From an uncultured Alphaproteobacteria bacterium (lineage in GTDB: Bacteria; Pseudomonadota; Alphaproteobacteria; UBA3830), in NCBI GenBank assembly GCA_944390775.1, contig CALXQQ010000018.1, positions 1 through 59,641 of the forward strand: a DNA stretch of 59,641 nt, in the 5' to 3' direction. Of the stretch, positions 64-57,952 are shown one piece after another. Below the pieces are notes generated by a model, which made no database searches, was not told the DNA's origin, and saw nothing but the letters and a program-made list of their open reading frames with translations. The translations under genes and the position numbers were made by a program. Numbering within the stretch: position 1 is the first letter of the stretch; each line of letters opens with the position of its first letter.

Positions 64-2004
64 TTACCGATTCAACGACAAACTATCCAGCACTGCGAGA
101 GCGGCCTGGTTCGTCGGAGCTCGCAACAGATCGACAATGGTCGGCAATTCGGCTCTGATCGAGGCTTCGTGCTGAAGCAAGATTTCGATCTGAGCAACAA
201 TTCCGTCGGCGGAACAGTTTTCCTGCAAAAGCTCAGGGACGACGGATCTTTGTGCAATAATATTCACGAGGCAAACCCATCGAGTACGCAAAAGTCTTCG
301 CACGATCATCGCAGTAACAGGCGATGCCCTGTAGATGACCACCATTGGAAGCCCGACTCTCGCCAATTCCAATGTCACTGTGCCCGACACAGCAACTGCC
401 ACACGCGAGGCGTAGTAGCCCAAAATTTTGTCTCTTTTAGCGCTGACGATCAAAATATTCCAACCACTAGTTTCCCGTTCGACATCTTTTCTCAGAGAAT
501 CTGTGACGGGCATAATAAACTGGGCTGTAGGATATTTTTTTCTAAGTATTTCAACGACTTCTTTCAAAATAGGAAGGTGCCTTTCCAGCTCGCCTTTGCG
601 ACTGCCGGGCAACAGAGTAATAAGCATATTTCCTATGGAGTGGGTCTTTCGAAACGTGGCCAATTCCTCATCCGAGGGTTGAGCAAAATCCTCATCGGAA
701 GCGATGGGATGGCCGACAAACACGCTATCCAACCCATGACATCTAAACAATTCAGGTTCAAAAGGAAAAAGCGTCAACAATTTGTCGACGATGCGGCTGA
801 GTTTCTTGGCTCGACCTTTGCGCCATGCCCAGACAGATGGCGCAACATAATGAATGATTGGATTTGTAAAGCCTTTGCGCTTCAATCTTCGGTTTACAAT
901 ATTGGTAAAGCCGGGAGAATCTATTGTGATCACAAGATCGGGCTTATATTTATCTATGGCGGAAATTGTTTTATTAATCAATCGCTTAAAGTGAAAAATT
1001 TTCCCGACAATTTCAACCAATCCCATCACAGCCAATTCGTCCGAAGGAAATATTTGTCTCAATCCGGCATGAGACATATGCACACCACCAATGCCACAAA
1101 ATTCGATAGGGGTAGGGGAGATGCGTCGCAAATCTTCCATGAGTTTGCCGCCCAGATAGTCCCCGGAGGCTTCTCCTGCGATGAGAAAAATTTTGTGGAT
1201 GGGCACAGAGCGGCTGACCAAAAACATATTGTAACTATTGACTTTTCGAATGACCTCTTCCTTATCCAAAACGATGCATTTTTCTGCTTCTATAGCGAGG
1301 CCGGAAAACCCACTAAGATGCAATTGCTCGATTGTATCCGGGCCGATAGTGGGCAAATCGAGTCGCAAGTCTTGTTGCGGTTTGGAGACTTTGGTCAAAA
1401 TTCCGCCCGAAGAGGTTGTTCTAAGCGAAGCACTGCGTTTAATAAGCGATTCAGTTCCGGATATATCTTCCTGTGCCAAGATTTGGTCGCCGATCATCGT
1501 AACTGCTTGACCAACGTCTGCAAAACCAAGTTTTTTTGCCGCGATAAGCCCGATATCAATGGATCTGTTTTCTTCCGGAGAGGGGTGTCGTGCAGAAAAA
1601 ATACCAGCCGGCAAAAAGATATTTTGCAGATAATCGGTGCCGGATACGATCTCAAACCCTTCGTCACGAAACAGAGATTCAATACATCGTAGTAGCTGAT
1701 CATCGCCTGCATAGATTGCTTTTCCACAACGTAACAACCATGTTGTTCCGGTTTTATCTAAAGATATTTGTGAAAAATCAGGACGTTTTACCCAGCCAGC
1801 AAAGACAATCTTATCTACCTTATTTTGATGAAGAAAATCGAGAGCTTTTTCAACCTCACCAAATTTTATGGACAATTGTGGCACGGAAGGCCAGCCTTCA
1901 GTATCGCAAAATCCATCTAAAAAGAGTAAACAAAACGGCTCTTTGTCGCAGGATTGTGCTACCATTTTCGGATAGGCACCACCTCCGCAAATAATGCATA
2001 ACAT
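64..2004 (-). CDS. lpxI-lpxB: Fused UDP-2,3-diacylglucosamine pyrophosphatase (LpxI) and lipid-A-disaccharide synthase (LpxB)
   Basis: A single 646-residue frame joins two successive lipid A enzymes. Residues 1-265 are LpxI-like (start MLCIICGGGAYP, then LPTIGPDTIE near 218-227, which carries the Asp expected to be catalytic in LpxI). This half hydrolyses UDP-2,3-diacylglucosamine to lipid X. Residues 270-646 are LpxB-like, with IAGEASGD, DSPGF, HYVAPSVWAWRKGRA, FVGHPI, LLPGSRKGE and SGTVTLELA. This half condenses lipid X with its UDP precursor into the disaccharide. Each half has about the usual length of the separate enzyme, so neither looks truncated. The ATG overlaps the lpxA stop by one base (TAATG), making it the distal gene of the lpx operon. 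GC rises towards the LpxB half (about 50 percent in sampled lines, against about 35-40 percent elsewhere). Function is confident from motifs; that the fusion is active is inferred. Confidence 0.93.
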   Translation of the reverse strand: MLCIICGGGAYPKMVAQSCDKEPFCLLFLDGFCDTEGWPSVPQLSIKFGEVEKALDFLHQNKVDKIVFAGWVKRPDFSQISLDKTGTTWLLRCGKAIYAGDDQLLRCIESLFRDEGFEIVSGTDYLQNIFLPAGIFSARHPSPEENRSIDIGLIAAKKLGFADVGQAVTMIGDQILAQEDISGTESLIKRSASLRTTSSGGILTKVSKPQQDLRLDLPTIGPDTIEQLHLSGFSGLAIEAEKCIVLDKEEVIRKVNSYNMFLVSRSVPIHKIFLIAGEASGDYLGGKLMEDLRRISPTPIEFCGIGGVHMSHAGLRQIFPSDELAVMGLVEIVGKIFHFKRLINKTISAIDKYKPDLVITIDSPGFTNIVNRRLKRKGFTNPIIHYVAPSVWAWRKGRAKKLSRIVDKLLTLFPFEPELFRCHGLDSVFVGHPIASDEDFAQPSDEELATFRKTHSIGNMLITLLPGSRKGELERHLPILKEVVEILRKKYPTAQFIMPVTDSLRKDVERETSGWNILIVSAKRDKILGYYASRVAVAVSGTVTLELARVGLPMVVIYRASPVTAMIVRRLLRTRWVCLVNIIAQRSVVPELLQENCSADGIVAQIEILLQHEASIRAELPTIVDLLRAPTNQAALAVLDSLSLNR

Positions 2005-2789
2005 TATTTACTCTTTGGTAGGCAAAATGAACGTTTGCTATCCTGATGCATAAATTCCAATAGATATTTTACGCAAGTCCATTGAGATAACTTTTGTTCA
2101 ACTTGTTTTATATTATCAGATATAGGAGCCTCCTCAGAAAATAACATTTCATATGCTTTTTGCAATGCGACTATTTCTTGACGTTCGATATTTGCACGTT
2201 TTAGACCAATGAGGTTTATATCATACAAATGGGCACGTTCTCCTTTGACAGCACCAAACGGAATAACATCTCTCTCAACACCGGACATTCCTCCGATTAC
2301 TGCGTTTTTTCCGACTCGAACAAATTGATGAATAGCAGCCAATCCACCTATTATAACATTATCTTCTATGGTGACATGTCCGGCAAGAGTCGCATTATTG
2401 CCCATCACAATGTGATTTCCAACGACACAATCATGTGCTATATGTACTCCGACCATAAACAAATTATGATCACCAACGACAGTTTTCATAGAACCGCCTT
2501 GGGTGCCTATATGCATTGTGACATATTCACGAATCGTATTATAACACCCGATTTGCAAAGAGGCTTTTTCTCCGCGATATTTTAAATCTTGGGGAGGATG
2601 GCCCAGCGAAGCAAAGGGGAAAATCTTGGTGCCTGTGCCGATTGTGGTTATGCCATCAATACACACATGAGACATAATTTCTACATCGTCACCGATGACA
2701 ACATTATCGCCAATAATAGAGTAGGGACCAATTTTTACATTCTTACCAATTTGTGCAGATGGCGAGACTATAGCTGAATCATGTATCAT
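2004..2789 (-). CDS. lpxA: Acyl-ACP--UDP-N-acetylglucosamine O-acyltransferase LpxA
   Basis: First enzyme of lipid A synthesis: it transfers an R-3-hydroxyacyl chain from ACP to the 3-OH of UDP-GlcNAc in the cytosol. The 261-residue protein (E. coli LpxA is 262) is made of left-handed beta-helix hexapeptide repeats over residues 1-190 (for example IGPYSIIGDNVVIGDDVEI), then a helical C-terminus. The catalytic His sits in GVHIAHDCVVGNH, and GGLAAIHQFVRVG matches the family. It lies 6 bases after fabZ and shares one base with lpxI-lpxB, so the three are almost certainly co-translated. No unusual features. Confidence 0.97.
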   Translation of the reverse strand: MIHDSAIVSPSAQIGKNVKIGPYSIIGDNVVIGDDVEIMSHVCIDGITTIGTGTKIFPFASLGHPPQDLKYRGEKASLQIGCYNTIREYVTMHIGTQGGSMKTVVGDHNLFMVGVHIAHDCVVGNHIVMGNNATLAGHVTIEDNVIIGGLAAIHQFVRVGKNAVIGGMSGVERDVIPFGAVKGERAHLYDINLIGLKRANIERQEIVALQKAYEMLFSEEAPISDNIKQVEQKLSQWTCVKYLLEFMHQDSKRSFCLPKSK

Positions 2790-2795
2790 CTTACC

Positions 2796-3242
2796 TCACA
2801 GAACTATCATGGCTGTGAAAACGGCTTCTGCCACCAATGATCCATCTACGCGAGCTTCGCCACGAAAACGCCAGACATTACCATGCTGCTTTTCTTTTTG
2901 AACATGCAGTTTTAATACGTCTCCGGGCTGCACCAATTTACGGAATTTCACATTGTCCATGGACATGAAGTACACTAGACCGCCATTTTGCTCAATTCCC
3001 ATAGTTTTGGCGACCAAAGCTCCTGCGGTTTGTCCCATAGCCTCTACAATCAAGACACCGGGCATAATTGGTCGTTGCGGAAAATGGCCCTGGAAAAACG
3101 GCTCATTATTCGTAACATTTTTTATCCCAACTGCACTTTCACCCAATATGATATCTTCCATACGATCTATCATTAACATGGGATAGCGATGAGGTAGACA
3201 CTCTTTTATAGCATTAATATCGAGACTAAATGGTTCAGACAT
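2796..3242 (-). CDS. fabZ: 3-hydroxyacyl-[ACP] dehydratase FabZ
   Basis: Dehydrates 3-hydroxyacyl-ACP in type II fatty acid synthesis. It draws on the same 3-hydroxyacyl-ACP pool used by LpxA and LpxD, which explains its place between them. The 148-residue hot-dog-fold protein shows [12 protein letters not shown] near residue 15 and the catalytic His/Glu block [20 protein letters not shown] around 53-72. Length is normal. The ATG at 3240-3242 is one base past the lpxD stop, indicating translational coupling. Confidence 0.97.
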
Positions 3243-3243
3243 G

Positions 3244-4263
3244 TTAATTTTTCCTCTTCTTTGTTACAGACATTTTTAAAAATGCAGCTTGTCGTTTCCA
3301 GGTATTGATGTCGACAGCAGGAATGCCACCAACTATTTGGCCAGCAGGAATATTCCCTGCAATACCGCTCTTAGCCGCAACAACAACTCCATCACCAATA
3401 TCCAAATGACCCGCGACTCCGACTTGTCCTGCCAGAACAACGCCATCGCCAATATGGGTGCTGCCAGATATTCCAACTTGAGCCACAATAATGCAGCTTT
3501 TACCAATGTGTACGTTATGACCAATCTGCACTAAATTATCAATAATAGTGTCGTCTCCAATGACTGTATCATCTACACTACCTCTGTCAATTGTGGTATT
3601 TGCTCCAATTCGCACACGATCACCAATCAATACGCGTCCGAGCTGCTTGATATATACCATGCGTCCTTCGTGCGGAATAATACCAAAGCCAGATTCGCCG
3701 ATGCGCGCACCCGAATTAATTATCGCGTTATCTCCAATAATAGCATGAGAAATCGTGACATTACTTCTAATGCGACTGCCACTTCCAATGCGACATCCTT
3801 TGCCGATTATTGTGTTAGAGCCAATAATTACATCATTGCCAATAACAACATCTTCTCCAATTGATGTGTTATCGCAAATGTAGCAATCTCGACCCAATTT
3901 TGCAGATTCATGAATTTTCGCAGTTGCAGAAATATGATGCACATGTCCCTCATCTGGGTATAGAACATCCAGCACTTGCGCATATCGTACAAGAACATTG
4001 TCCGCAACTAATCCCACAACGCCTTCTGGCAGATCATCTATGTCAGATTCTCCTATAATTACAGCGCCAGCCTTAGTATTGCGAAATTCTAAAAGGTGTT
4101 TGCGATTTCCAAAAAATGCTATTTCTCCTGCTTGAGCTTTTTCCAGAGTCGCTACTCCGGTAATTGTAAAGTCAGCATCACCAATAGGTTTCAGACCACA
4201 AATGACAGCCAATTCTGATAACTGCACTCGTCTAATTGCTGGGAAAAATTTGGTATCTATCAT
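3244..4263 (-). CDS. lpxD: UDP-3-O-(3-hydroxyacyl)glucosamine N-acyltransferase LpxD
   Basis: Third lipid A enzyme, adding the N-linked hydroxyacyl chain. The start is set at the ATG at 4261-4263 ([12 protein letters not shown]) because AAGGG lies just upstream and the codon overlaps the skp stop as TAATG; an in-frame ATG 13 codons upstream would lie inside skp. This gives 339 residues, the family's usual size. Residues 10-100 form the uridine-binding N-terminal domain ([16 protein letters not shown]), residues 105-320 the hexapeptide-repeat beta helix, with the catalytic His in [13 protein letters not shown]. The C-terminal [20 protein letters not shown] is typical. Confidence 0.96.
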
Positions 4264-4844
4264 TAATTCACCCTTTTCAAACATACTTCTATAAATGGAC
4301 ATACACTGTTTAAATGAGCAATTATATTGTCAGTTATATCGATGCAAGTCCCACTGTGATGATGAACTGCGTCAGAATCCAGTACTATATCCAGTTGCAT
4401 TTGTTCGGCTACGGCTTTTACGCTTTCACTGATTTTTATTTTTAAGTGGCTAATCGCATCTTCTGATGCGGCTGCTATTTGATATCGCTTCTCGCGCACA
4501 GAATCATAAAGAGCCATTTGCATATCTTCTATTCTGGATTTGTCTTTTAAACGATCTTTACTACTTTCTTCTTTTTTGATCAGATTTTCTAATTCTAACA
4601 AATTCTTTTTGGATTCATCATTGATGCGAGTGAGCTGCTCATCTATCTGTTTGCCCGCTATGGATGTAGACGCAATTCGCTTGATGTCCATAACCGCAAT
4701 GCGAATATTTTTGTCATGCGTCGGAGGTATAAGCGATATTAGCGATTGCTTGATCGCTGTCATAGAATGATCAACGTACAGTTTTCCTCCAATAACAAAT
4801 ACAACAATTGAAAAAAAAATTATCGTATAAATTTTGCGTATCAT
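4263..4844 (-). CDS. skp: OmpH/Skp family periplasmic chaperone
   Basis: A 193-residue protein with an N-terminal membrane or signal segment (residues 5-23) and a long helical, coiled-coil-prone middle (residues 65-150, rich in E, K, S and L), as expected for Skp/OmpH chaperones that hold unfolded outer-membrane proteins after Sec export. Family assignment depends on IRIAVMDIKRI and the helical arms, and on position: bamA-skp-lpxD is a conserved order. The N-terminal segment lacks an obvious cleavage site, so the protein may stay anchored. The stop overlaps the lpxD ATG, and its own ATG overlaps the bamA stop. Longer than the mature E. coli protein. Confidence 0.85.
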   Translation of the reverse strand: MIRKIYTIIFFSIVVFVIGGKLYVDHSMTAIKQSLISLIPPTHDKNIRIAVMDIKRIASTSIAGKQIDEQLTRINDESKKNLLELENLIKKEESSKDRLKDKSRIEDMQMALYDSVREKRYQIAAASEDAISHLKIKISESVKAVAEQMQLDIVLDSDAVHHHSGTCIDITDNIIAHLNSVCPFIEVCLKRVN

Positions 4845-7195
4845 TACATCAATCCGGTCAAAGTGAATGTTTGTGTATCATCAAATGACTTCTTCTTCAG
4901 AGGGAATCCAAAGATAAAGGCCATCGGCATTCCAAGCGGAGAATGCTCCCACTCTATGGCAACACCAACAGAAGCACGAATTGCACTTGAATCACGAATC
5001 AAGGTGCGGTCATATTTGGACCCCCATGCACTACCGAAATCCAAGAAAGCTACTCCATTCATTCCCATCTCTCGCGTCGACAGAGGAGTTTTTACCTTAA
5101 AGCTAAGTGTCCAAAACTTATTACCGCCGATGCTGTTGCCTCTCATATCTTTTGGACCAACACCAAACGAATCGAATCCACGCATATCTTGACCATCTCC
5201 GCCTAATGCATATCTATTAAGGCTGCGAGTATTGCGTATTTCCTTAATGTAGCCAACCTTAGCATCTGCGATAAACGTGAATCTTTCAGAGAGAGGATAA
5301 AAATAGGTCCCGCTTAGCTCGTTTTTAAAATAACGTACTCCGCCACCAAGACCAGCATAAGCATTGCTTATGGCTAATTCATAGCCAGAACGTGGACGAT
5401 ACGGATTGTCTACCTTAACGTAGTGCAGCACAGATCCTAGTTCAAACGTCGTGTATTTTCCATATTCATCGCGCATAATAGGAGGAATATACCACGCATG
5501 ATCAGGAACATTGTCATACAACTTATTGTTTTCTCTATCCCACCAGCAACGAGAATTCATGGATATACTATAGGAAATCTTGTGATAAAGATTCTTCGTA
5601 ATTGCATAACGAATGTATGGCGCGACAAAAATAGAACGCAAAACGCTCTCGTTGTATTTTTTCCGGTCATAGTTGTTAGCACCAACAGCTAAACCTGCTC
5701 CGAAACTCTTGTCCATAAAACGAGGTTCATATATATCGAATTTTAAACCGTATAGTTTTTGTGCCCAGTATCCTTCTACAGCTAAAGATCGCCCCGTACC
5801 AAAAAGGTTGTTTTCTACCAGACCGACGAAGCCACCAAAACCATCCGCATCGCTGACACTTAATCCAAAACGCATTTGCGCAGTACTATCTTTTTCTTTC
5901 ACAGTGACTTGTAAAACGCGTTTATCTTCAGCAGAGCCGGCAATATCATTGACTTGAACATCATCAAAATATTCCAGTCCCTTGAGTCGCTCTACCGTAT
6001 GCTGAATTTTATACATGTTAAATGCATCACCTTCATGGATAGAAAATTCTCGCCGAATTACCCTATCAAGAGTACGTGAATTGCCGATAATGTCGATTCG
6101 TTCTATGAAAGCATGAGGAGAATTTTGCACAATATATTTGATATGCGCAATTTTCTTTTCTTTATCATATTCTATTTGTTCAACGACATCTATGAAAGGA
6201 TTGTCCTGCAGCGCTAACTCTCTACGAATGCGATCTTTGTTTTCGTTGATCGCACTTTCGTTGAAAACAGTGCCGCTTTTTAAATCAATAAAAGATGGGA
6301 ATTTGTCCGCAGAAAATACCTTTTTGGGATTTCCATTGTTCAATTGCATGAGTTCTGGTGAATCAGAGATAATCTTTTCTACACGAGACTCAACACTGAT
6401 ATTACCTATCTTATATAAATCGCCTTCTTCAAGGGTAAAGGTACAGTAATGAGCAGTTTTATCGTAGTCCAATTCTGCAGAAGTCGATGTCACAATGAAA
6501 AACGGATAACCATTGTTTCTATAGAATTTTGTGAGATGATCTATGTCAACCTCAACCTTATCTGGTCTGAAAATATGACTGTCTCCATCCCAAAAACGCC
6601 AAACTTTTTTCTCCTTAATTGATAGCAGATCTTTTAATTCATCATCACTAAATTGCTTATTACCAACAAAAATAATCTTTTTTATAGACGTGCGTTCTCC
6701 TTCTTGAATTTCAAATACAAGATCAATCCTATTGCCTGGATGCTTGATAACTTTGGGAGTAATAATCGCAGAAAAATAACCGATCGATTTGTACGCTAAT
6801 TGTATGTCTGATAGGACATCTTTGATTATGTGCAAATTGTAAAGCTTGCCTTCTCCAATGCGATCGTTCACTATGTTTTTTAGCATTTCTTCACTGGCGG
6901 CATCGTTTCCTTCAAACGCCACTTTATCTATAATGGGTTTTTCTGTGCAGCAAACAACTAAAGTGTCTCCGCGCTTTACAAATCTAACATACGAAAAAAA
7001 ATCCTTTTTGAATAAGGCTTTTAAAGAGTCATCAATGTCTTTCTGACTGTAAGGACGATGCGGAACAATAGTTACACAATCTTTAATAGCATCAACCTCA
7101 ACCCTATCGAGTCCTTCATACTCTATCTTGCTGACGACATCTGCAAACAAAGGAGAATTCAAAATTAAAAACGCTAAACCCAAAAACTTCTTCAT
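4844..7195 (-). CDS. bamA: Outer membrane protein assembly factor BamA
   Basis: Central component of the BAM complex, which inserts beta-barrel proteins into the outer membrane. The 783-residue protein has a signal peptide (1-18, ending LFADV), POTRA domains over roughly 20-440, and a 16-strand barrel to the end. The conserved loop motif appears as DMRGFDSFGVGP (usually VRGF). The last residues are TFTLTGLM: the beta-signal pattern is present, but the terminal residue is Met instead of the usual Phe or Trp. It lies between rseP and skp in the classical order, with a 4-base gap to rseP and a one-base overlap with skp. Confidence 0.96.
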   Translation of the reverse strand: MKKFLGLAFLILNSPLFADVVSKIEYEGLDRVEVDAIKDCVTIVPHRPYSQKDIDDSLKALFKKDFFSYVRFVKRGDTLVVCCTEKPIIDKVAFEGNDAASEEMLKNIVNDRIGEGKLYNLHIIKDVLSDIQLAYKSIGYFSAIITPKVIKHPGNRIDLVFEIQEGERTSIKKIIFVGNKQFSDDELKDLLSIKEKKVWRFWDGDSHIFRPDKVEVDIDHLTKFYRNNGYPFFIVTSTSAELDYDKTAHYCTFTLEEGDLYKIGNISVESRVEKIISDSPELMQLNNGNPKKVFSADKFPSFIDLKSGTVFNESAINENKDRIRRELALQDNPFIDVVEQIEYDKEKKIAHIKYIVQNSPHAFIERIDIIGNSRTLDRVIRREFSIHEGDAFNMYKIQHTVERLKGLEYFDDVQVNDIAGSAEDKRVLQVTVKEKDSTAQMRFGLSVSDADGFGGFVGLVENNLFGTGRSLAVEGYWAQKLYGLKFDIYEPRFMDKSFGAGLAVGANNYDRKKYNESVLRSIFVAPYIRYAITKNLYHKISYSISMNSRCWWDRENNKLYDNVPDHAWYIPPIMRDEYGKYTTFELGSVLHYVKVDNPYRPRSGYELAISNAYAGLGGGVRYFKNELSGTYFYPLSERFTFIADAKVGYIKEIRNTRSLNRYALGGDGQDMRGFDSFGVGPKDMRGNSIGGNKFWTLSFKVKTPLSTREMGMNGVAFLDFGSAWGSKYDRTLIRDSSAIRASVGVAIEWEHSPLGMPMAFIFGFPLKKKSFDDTQTFTLTGLM

Positions 7196-7199
7196 AGAC

Positions 7200-8333
7200 C
7201 TATCCTATGATATTCATAAAAAACTTATTCACTACTTCCAACCGCAATATATCATTTACTGTCGTTAGCAACATCAATAATACTAGCAGAATTGCACAGC
7301 CAATCATAATATATTCTTGTATCTTTGGGGGAAATTTTCTACCAAATATGTATTCTACAAAACAAATTAGGATGCGTCCTCCATCAAGTACGGGTAATGG
7401 AAATAAATTAATGAAGCCAAGATTCAGTGATAAAGTTACAGTGAACATGATCAACAAAGCAAAATTACCTGCCCTGGACAAATCTCCCGCAATCTCCGCC
7501 ATTCGCACGACGCCGCCAAAGTTGTCCAACGATTGTTTCCCTGCGAATAACTTTCCAAACATGCCAAACATTTCTTTTGTAGCATTAACGCATAATGAGA
7601 AAGCACTCCCCATAGCATCAATGAAAGATTTGCGAGCAAAAACCGGTGCACCAGATGCAATACCGACCATCTTGGTTTGAGATTCCCTTCCAAACGCCCT
7701 TTTTTGCGTAGTGATTTTAGGCTGCACAAGAAAACTTTTCTGTTCGCCATTTCTATCTATCAGAAAGTTCAATTGTCCGGTTTCATCCTCTAAAATTGCG
7801 ATGGAAACATCTCTAAAGCGCTGCACAGGACGATCATTTACAGACAGTATACGGTCTCCTTTTTGTAACCCAACTATTGCGGCTGGACTATCCGCTACAA
7901 CATTGCCTATCACGGCATCGTAAGTAGGTAATCCATGGAAAAAAGCCATGAAAGTCGCTACTACAAACGCGTATATATAATTGAAAAATGGTCCACCAAA
8001 TGCTATCCAGATTTTTGCCCATTCACCTTTGGAGGTGATGGCCATTTTTTTTTCTTCCTCAGATAAATCTTTTATCGCGTCAGGATTTTCTGTTGTAGAT
8101 GACGCATCTCCATCTCCTAACATCATCACATATCCGCCTACAGGCAGGAGCGAAAAACACCAGCGAGTACCATTTTTATCATTAAAACCAAAAATCTCCG
8201 GACCCATTCCGATCGAAAATGTTTCGACCTTAACACCCATTTGTCGAGCAGCCAAATAGTGTCCAAATTCATGCACAACCACAATGATATTTATTATCAG
8301 AAGGAACGAAACTATATAGTATATAAAACTCAT
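7200..8333 (-). CDS. rseP: RseP-type site-2 zinc protease
   Basis: Inner-membrane metalloprotease that cleaves transmembrane segments, classically anti-sigma factors in envelope stress. Visible elements: the zinc motif HEFGH at residues 21-25 in the first membrane helix, GGYVMMLGD, one PDZ domain near 130-205 (DSPAAIVGLQKGDRI), and the third-helix NLFPLPVLDGG motif carrying the metal-binding Asp. I chose the ATG at 8331-8333, which has AGG five bases upstream. A GTG two codons earlier (8337-8339) would overlap the cdsA stop as GTGA and is the alternative. dxr, usually between cdsA and rseP, is missing. Confidence 0.94.
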   Translation of the reverse strand: MSFIYYIVSFLLIINIIVVVHEFGHYLAARQMGVKVETFSIGMGPEIFGFNDKNGTRWCFSLLPVGGYVMMLGDGDASSTTENPDAIKDLSEEEKKMAITSKGEWAKIWIAFGGPFFNYIYAFVVATFMAFFHGLPTYDAVIGNVVADSPAAIVGLQKGDRILSVNDRPVQRFRDVSIAILEDETGQLNFLIDRNGEQKSFLVQPKITTQKRAFGRESQTKMVGIASGAPVFARKSFIDAMGSAFSLCVNATKEMFGMFGKLFAGKQSLDNFGGVVRMAEIAGDLSRAGNFALLIMFTVTLSLNLGFINLFPLPVLDGGRILICFVEYIFGRKFPPKIQEYIMIGCAILLVLLMLLTTVNDILRLEVVNKFFMNIIG

Positions 8334-8335
8334 AC

Positions 8336-9025
8336 TCACCTAGAATAAACGTTTATAATATAAAACACAATCGATACCATGAGAATACTGTCTAATCTAT
8401 CCAAAACACCACCGTGTCCAGGGAATAGATTTCCCATGTCTTTTACTTTGAGGCGCCTCTTGAAGTAGGATTCAATGAGATCACCAAAAATAGCCGATAG
8501 AATCAAAATTTGTAACACAAATAGGTTGTTCCAATAGAGGCTAATCGGATTGCTCATAATAGATGGACAGAGCTTGCTTATGAGCAGCATGAATATATTT
8601 GTCGTAGCAATGCCTCCAAAAAATCCCGCCCAAGTTTTTAACGGACTAATGCGCGGACATAACTTGGGGCCTTTCAGAGTTTTACCAATGACATAGGCGC
8701 CTATGTCCGTCAGACTCGCAATGCAGATTAAAAAGCAGGTTCCCAACGGACCAAATTCATGACGTTGTAGAATGAAGGTAACCGTACCAAAAAAACAAAA
8801 CGATAAAGCCGCAATTCGTATCAACCAATTCCCGCGTATTTTGCGAGAAAGAATCTCAGCCACGACAACCAAATATATTCCCCAACACAAAAACTCAAAT
8901 ACATGCGATGGTATCAAGAATACAAATAAAATGAATGGAATGAAAAATAAAGAGGAAACTAACCTGGTGACAAATTCTCCTCGTTCTTCTTTCGGCATTA
9001 AAAGCTTCATAACCCTACTCGCCAT
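8336..9025 (-). CDS. cdsA: Phosphatidate cytidylyltransferase CdsA
   Basis: Makes CDP-diacylglycerol from CTP and phosphatidic acid, the branch point of phospholipid synthesis, in the inner membrane. The 229-residue protein has about six hydrophobic helices and the full family signature near the C-terminus: SYFKRRLKVKDMGNLFPGHG followed by GVLDRLDS. LTDIGAYVIGK near 107 is the other conserved block. The ATG at 9025 has AAGGCGG just upstream; a second ATG five codons in has a poorly spaced site. It overlaps the end of uppS by 11 bases and abuts rseP directly. Slightly short for the family, the loss being at the N-terminus. Confidence 0.94.
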   Translation of the reverse strand: MASRVMKLLMPKEERGEFVTRLVSSLFFIPFILFVFLIPSHVFEFLCWGIYLVVVAEILSRKIRGNWLIRIAALSFCFFGTVTFILQRHEFGPLGTCFLICIASLTDIGAYVIGKTLKGPKLCPRISPLKTWAGFFGGIATTNIFMLLISKLCPSIMSNPISLYWNNLFVLQILILSAIFGDLIESYFKRRLKVKDMGNLFPGHGGVLDRLDSILMVSIVFYIINVYSR

Positions 9026-57112: not shown

Positions 57113-57952
57113 ATGCAGCAGGCAACAATTTCTGCTGAATTTACACTTGAGGGCGTAGGGACTCATAGTGGGGATTTATGTCGCATTAGGGTGAAACCGG
57201 CGGACATAAACAATGGTATAGGCTTTCAGGTACAAGATACATATATTGCGGCTAATTATCACAATGTTGTGAACACTGAAATGTGTACGCAGCTTGCCTG
57301 TGATGGAGTATCGATTGCGACAGTTGAGCATCTGATGGCGGCTTTTTTTGGAACAGGTGTTACGAATGCTGTTGTATATGTTGAGGGCAAAGAAATACCT
57401 ATTATGGATGGCAGTGCGCGTCCATTTGTCGATGCTATTAAGCGAGTTGGGATAGAGCAGCAAAATTCTCACAGGTCATGCATAAGAGTTATGCAAGAAG
57501 TTGCTGTTGTTGAGGAGGGCAGATGGATTATGCTGGCGCCATCTGACGATTTTAATATTCATGTTGTGTGTGATTTTTCCAAGAGGCAGCTTCATACAGA
57601 GCCGAAATTATTTCAATTTTCCTGTGAGAAGTTTGCGGATGAAATTGCGCCTGCGAGAACGTTTGGTTTTCAATCTGATGTAGAGGAGATGAGGCGTCGA
57701 GGTTTGGGGCGAGGATCTTCTCTTGAGAATGTTGTAGTTTTTGATGATAGTGGCGGAGTGATTAATTCGGAAGGCTTACGTTTTCCTCAAGAGCCTGTGC
57801 ATCATAAAATACTTGATTTGATTGGCGATTTATCTTTGAGTGGATATTACATTTTGGGGAAATGTTCTGCATATTGTCCGGGGCATAGGATGAACCACAG
57901 GTTATTGCAGGAATTATTTTCAGATGCTTCTAATTATGCGGTTATTATCTAA
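57113..57952 (+). CDS. lpxC: UDP-3-O-acyl-N-acetylglucosamine deacetylase LpxC
   Basis: Zinc deacetylase and committed step of lipid A synthesis. The 279-residue protein has EGVGTHSGD at the N-terminus, the first zinc His in VEHLMAAFFGTGVTN near 70, PIMDGSARPF, the His/Asp ligands in EPVHHKILDLIGDLSL near 230 and the catalytic His in CPGHRMNHRLLQEL. Somewhat shorter than the usual 300-305. With the lpxI-lpxB, lpxA and lpxD genes at the other end of the window it covers lipid A synthesis through the disaccharide. Its stop overlaps the tsaD ATG (TAATG). Confidence 0.96.
   Translation: MQQATISAEFTLEGVGTHSGDLCRIRVKPADINNGIGFQVQDTYIAANYHNVVNTEMCTQLACDGVSIATVEHLMAAFFGTGVTNAVVYVEGKEIPIMDGSARPFVDAIKRVGIEQQNSHRSCIRVMQEVAVVEEGRWIMLAPSDDFNIHVVCDFSKRQLHTEPKLFQFSCEKFADEIAPARTFGFQSDVEEMRRRGLGRGSSLENVVVFDDSGGVINSEGLRFPQEPVHHKILDLIGDLSLSGYYILGKCSAYCPGHRMNHRLLQELFSDASNYAVII

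Follow-up and report, generated by a model that had tools for sequence, protein, structure and literature searches.

A single minus-strand open reading frame (64..2004) carries LpxI and LpxB together in the window, by which we mean the whole 59,641-nucleotide stretch of DNA analyzed. The frame is real, neither a chance reading nor a sequencing slip, and specifies a protein of 646 amino acids. By domain family, its N-terminal half is a predicted UDP-2,3-diacylglucosamine pyrophosphohydrolase (LpxI) and its C-terminal half a predicted lipid-A-disaccharide synthase (LpxB). At least five genera of small-genome, gut-associated alphaproteobacteria have retained the fusion, and more than once the gene order of the lipid A operon has become the architecture of a protein.

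The lpxI-lpxB reading frame and its genomic setting

The frame begins with ATG and has no internal stop. Pfam domains LpxI_N (PF17930; residues 2-128, E 2e-20, 73.5 bits versus a cut-off of 25), LpxI_C (PF06230; residues 132-263, E 3.8e-36, 124.3 bits versus 25), and LpxB (PF02684; residues 272-613, E 8.3e-90, 301.8 bits versus 22.6) follow one another along the protein, which also passes the LpxB model TIGR00215 (240.5 bits versus 190.25). The LpxI equivalog model NF047836 aligned over its full length with 162.4 bits, below its curated cut-off of 400. We therefore consider the LpxI half a divergent member and restrict our assignment to the LpxI domain family, rather than to that equivalog model. 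Searching solved structures by sequence returned only LpxI (4GGM and 4J6E) and LpxB (5W8N, 5W8S, and 5W8X). Both halves are nearly complete when aligned to them, covering positions 7-275 of 283 in 4GGM and positions 9-361 of 382 in 5W8S.

From the LpxI_N and LpxI_C matches, the alignment with 4GGM and 4J6E, and residue invariance, we delimited the LpxI domain to residues 1-263 (1216..2004, minus strand). The LpxB match, TIGR00215, and residue mapping place the LpxB domain at residues 271-646 plus the stop codon (64..1194, minus strand). The linker between them, residues 264-270 (1195..1215, minus strand), is only about 7 residues long and was delimited by comparing 28 junctions codon by codon, by a scan for start codons, and from predicted strands. 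The last strand of LpxI (261-265) and the first of LpxB (270-276) have almost nothing between them. Thus, the open reading frame, Pfam, and structure alignments bear out the preliminary description, which had read one 646-residue frame with full-length LpxI and LpxB, and its estimate of 1180-1215 for the junction holds. A plus-strand frame antisense to the gene (25-1692, 555 amino acids) was rejected as a second gene; since it matches nothing in Pfam and 27 relatives show no antisense frame like it, it probably arises as a side effect of codon usage.

Upstream of the fused gene, and on the same strand, are lpxA (2004..2789; TIGR01852, 343 bits, cut-off 231), which overlaps the start of the fusion by 1 nt (TAATG), fabZ (2796..3242; TIGR01750, 186.8 bits, cut-off 155), lpxD (3244..4302; TIGR01853, 344.8 bits, cut-off 242.5), one further gene, bamA (4844..7195; POTRA and Omp85 domains), and an rseP-like site-2 protease gene (7200..8339; Peptidase_M50 and PDZ domains). 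This is the usual alphaproteobacterial gene order, but with lpxI and lpxB merged into one gene. Elsewhere in the window, lpxC lies on the plus strand (57113..57952; PF03331, 313.9 bits). The window corresponds to contig C18 of a 1.01-Mb genome that is 97.9% complete and contains both lpxK and lpxC. We found neither lpxH (no match to TIGR01854) nor a second copy of lpxI or lpxB in this genome. Because lpxH is absent and the fused gene is the sole copy of both lpxI and lpxB, the bacterium appears to rely on this one gene to make lipid A. The LpxI half is also in the context expected for LpxI, with lpxA immediately upstream and a genome that lacks lpxH.

Distribution, origin, and relocation of the fusion

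Searching related genomes for the two-domain architecture, we found the single frame in 28 of the 41 genomes of the family (the window included), spread over five genera (g1, g2, g3, g5, and g6). In two of these (L018 and L028) the gene is cut by a contig end that still leaves the junction spanned. Every genome outside genus g4 in which the gene was found (28 of 28) carries it as one frame, whereas none of the 11 g4 genomes with a match does; there, six genomes have lpxI and lpxB side by side, four have them on separate contigs, and one yielded a match to lpxI alone. The family search gave no match in one g6 genome and one g4 genome, the latter 55% complete. The genomes of the relatives were assembled from metagenomes and bear the titles Holosporaceae bacterium, Alphaproteobacteria bacterium, or uncultured proteobacterium; several titles mention ruminant-gut samples. 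Genomes in the family are about 1 Mb in size. Holosporales include gut-derived, especially termite-gut, bacteria (PMC11909080). The fused members share 44-53% identity with the window protein, which argues that the fusion is old.

A careful tree of 42 rows united all 26 fused family members used into one clade (support 88/98), apart from both the outgroups and genus g4 with its split genes. A single origin of the family fusion, in an ancestor shared by at least five genera, is therefore likely. A faster mixture-model tree of 81 rows disagrees in that g4 falls inside the fused group; the corresponding scenario, one gain with a later re-split in g4, is the less probable of the two. In split relatives the lpxI and lpxB genes abut or overlap, and the fusion probably began as the loss of a stop codon or a small indel between abutting genes. 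Two genomes of family f2 in the same order (G041 and G044; L029 and L030) have the arrangement LpxI-TAG-TTG-LpxB in one frame, a single base change away from fusion. These two, G083, G087, and others had been candidate fusions and were rejected, as those examined have two in-frame neighboring genes with one stop between them. Family f186, from the phylum-wide sample, likewise has lpxI and lpxB in one frame that a stop divides, an arrangement ready for fusion.

Outside the family, five of the best 80 named loci are single frames. Three of them form a clade (L085, L089, and L092) and two a pair (L086 and L087) with linkers of about 45-50 residues; on the 81-row tree split genes separate these fusions from the family and from each other. 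The tree indicates that at least two further LpxI-LpxB fusions arose in other alphaproteobacteria. The same tree requires a minimum of five changes between the fused and split states, three of which are forced by strongly supported branches. One more single frame, in G247 (L151), was rejected as an independent origin and left uncounted because its congeners are split and an assembly indel is possible. Among the matches listed, G247 and the family members were the only stop-free frames in a class-wide sample of 385 genomes, in agreement with the earlier statement that the two genes are separate neighbors in most alphaproteobacteria, and a phylum-wide sample of 299 genomes gave no single frame beyond the window among the matches listed.

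The fused gene has also moved as a unit. It lies between lepA and dnaN-recF in G015 (genus g3), and after lepA and away from lpxA in G002 and G007, and is still one gene in all three (loci L007, L008, L009 / L074, L076, L078 for G015, G002, and G007). In the split genus g4, lpxI remains with lpxA in most genomes, and lpxB is on another contig than lpxI in 4 of 10. The fused gene of G005 (L016) has no lpxA within 1.5 kb upstream, so that another relocation is likely in this genome.

Predicted function and comparison with known systems

LpxB consumes one molecule each of the substrate and the product of the LpxH/LpxI step and is therefore in competition with LpxH or LpxI for UDP-diacylglucosamine. 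In the fused protein, the N-terminal half would convert UDP-2,3-diacylglucosamine to lipid X and UMP, and the C-terminal half would join this lipid X to a second UDP-2,3-diacylglucosamine, yielding lipid A disaccharide-1-phosphate and UDP. One chain would then turn two UDP-diacylglucosamine molecules into one disaccharide-1-phosphate. Judged from sequence, the protein is very probably a bifunctional LpxI-LpxB with both halves active in one chain. We infer that it is made as one chain, from which equal amounts and co-location follow directly; the fusion would hold both activities in a 1:1 ratio on a single membrane-associated protein, which would limit the amount of free lipid X and favor its hand-over between the LpxI and LpxB sites.

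Whether the fusion serves this hand-over is a separate matter. It is plausible, though less likely than not, that lipid X channeling evolved here, with lipid X passing between the sites without release, the 1:1 ratio setting how the substrate pool is split, and the arrangement arising several times in Alphaproteobacteria. Channeling is attractive because it has been suggested for LpxH and LpxB in a model of the E. coli pathway (PMC4412817). In that model LpxB consumes its two substrates, lipid X and UDP-diacylglucosamine, in a 1:1 ratio, and LpxH diverts the shared substrate to lipid X; the low level of lipid X found by measurement was reproduced only with strong product inhibition, which made a bottleneck (PMC4412817). 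By analogy, the fusion might be the natural counterpart of this LpxH-LpxB channeling, and it is conceivable, if doubtful, that channeling gives a measurable kinetic benefit. A natural LpxI-LpxB fusion is a direct test case for lipid X hand-over, so far predicted by modeling only, and presents two lipid A steps in one object for structural work.

The main rival explanation also assumes a bifunctional protein and departs from this view only in the significance given to the fusion. According to it, the fusion arose in a shrinking genome when the stop between two genes that overlapped or abutted was lost; each enzyme would work as it does on its own, with no channeling benefit. We put the probability of this explanation not far below one half. 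It fits well with relatives whose genes already overlap or abut, in some cases in frame with one stop between them (G041 and G044), with genomes of about 1 Mb, and with a linker that is short and mostly evolves faster than both domains. It explains less readily why five genera have retained the fusion, with no re-split on the better tree, why it has persisted outside the operon, and why it recurs in other lineages, including with longer linkers. Long retention is nevertheless compatible with neutrality, because re-splitting requires a new stop and a new start.

The predicted bifunctional LpxI-LpxB can be compared with its stand-alone counterparts. With LpxI of Caulobacter (4GGM and 4J6E) it shares both LpxI domains, the catalytic residues, and the neighboring lpxA. 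Known LpxI stands alone, whereas in the window protein the C-terminus of LpxI continues into LpxB through about 7 extra residues. Its C-terminal half has every listed active-site residue of E. coli LpxB (5W8N, 5W8S, and 5W8X) and differs from that enzyme in an N-terminus covalently tied to LpxI.

The nearest described case is the LpxC-FabZ fusion known from Bacteroidetes, Chlorobi, and Verrucomicrobia (PMC3087551; NCBIfam NF009667). There, too, two neighboring genes of the lipid A operon are fused, but their products LpxC and FabZ belong to two branches, in contrast to the consecutive steps of LpxI and LpxB, which draw on one substrate pool. The long LpxB model NF002173/PRK01021 (610 positions) also describes an LpxB with a long N-terminal extension. 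However, the window protein aligns to it by the LpxB part alone (227-575 of 610) and far under the cut-off, and thus gives no sign that the extension in that model is LpxI. We found no description of an LpxI-LpxB fusion in the part of the literature that was searched, where the matches were mentions of the operon or concerned unrelated topics.

The junction and the integrity of both halves

The gene might be fused at the DNA level only and yield two proteins, through an internal start or proteolysis at the junction. ATG, TTG, and GTG codons are indeed present in the vicinity of the window junction. However, linker length and sequence vary across the 28 fused genes, and their junctions share no internal start codon at a common position; several have none within 12 codons. 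Nor is there a Shine-Dalgarno-like motif at any of the 28 junctions, or a stop that would permit coupled re-initiation. The missing Shine-Dalgarno motif is weak evidence, as the fusion's own start has no obvious Shine-Dalgarno site either. Taken with the junction comparisons, the production of two proteins is improbable.

A second alternative, that one half is degenerate and the fusion is a relic with the other half active, could appeal to the LpxI score below the NF047836 cut-off. We consider it very improbable in view of the residues conserved in both halves. In the LpxI half the putative catalytic aspartate D216 is equivalent to D225 of Caulobacter LpxI, so that the D225A mutation site maps on it, and Q166, T184, and K205 are equivalent to Q169, T187, and K214. 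All four are invariant in 26 of 26 fused sequences, the set over which invariance was scored for both active sites, as is T224 of this half. In the LpxB half E278, S280, D362, S468, R469, E546, and N581, corresponding to E15, S17, D98, S200, R201, E281, and N316 of E. coli LpxB, are likewise invariant. The matched residues are reported to be catalytic or substrate-binding, and N316 is needed for full activity (PMC6286764, PMC5785501; for the roles of the LpxB active-site residues, PMC5785501).

Other positions differ in part. The hydrophobic membrane patch of LpxB (V66/V68/L69/L72/L75/L76) is hydrophobic at five of six positions in the window protein; the sixth, L76, is K340, a change that the split sister genus shares, and most sequences of the fused and sister groups have Lys or Arg here. 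At the position of the ribose-contact residue D188 of LpxI the window protein has E185, where relatives have D or N, and at that of N74 it has W71; neither position is constant among split LpxI proteins.

For close pairs with estimable dS, dN/dS was 0.06-0.12 in the LpxI half and 0.04-0.17 in the LpxB half, which indicates purifying selection on both. An AlphaFold monomer model of the window protein had a mean pLDDT of 84. Its LpxI part matched 4J6E with a target TM of 0.88, and its LpxB part matched 5W8N/5W8X with a target TM of about 0.64 and a high rmsd. The values for the LpxB part may come from the swapped domains of the solved dimer or from low-confidence stretches of the model (326-333 and 388-412). 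From the invariant active-site residues, the dN/dS values far below 1, and the lack of any other lpxH, lpxI, or lpxB gene in the genome, we concluded that both halves are very probably active, which leaves little room for the inactive half that the preliminary description had named as grounds for refuting the fusion.

An assembly or sequencing artifact at the junction, the other such ground, has a negligible probability even though the gene is close to one end of contig C18 and metagenome assemblies make up most of the genomes compared, since 27 other genomes assembled from different samples also have the open junction, and with 28 such genomes a sequencing error is excluded. Four g4 genomes (L033, L034, L035, and L036) have an insertion of about 55 residues in LpxB, near the equivalent of window residues 447-459.
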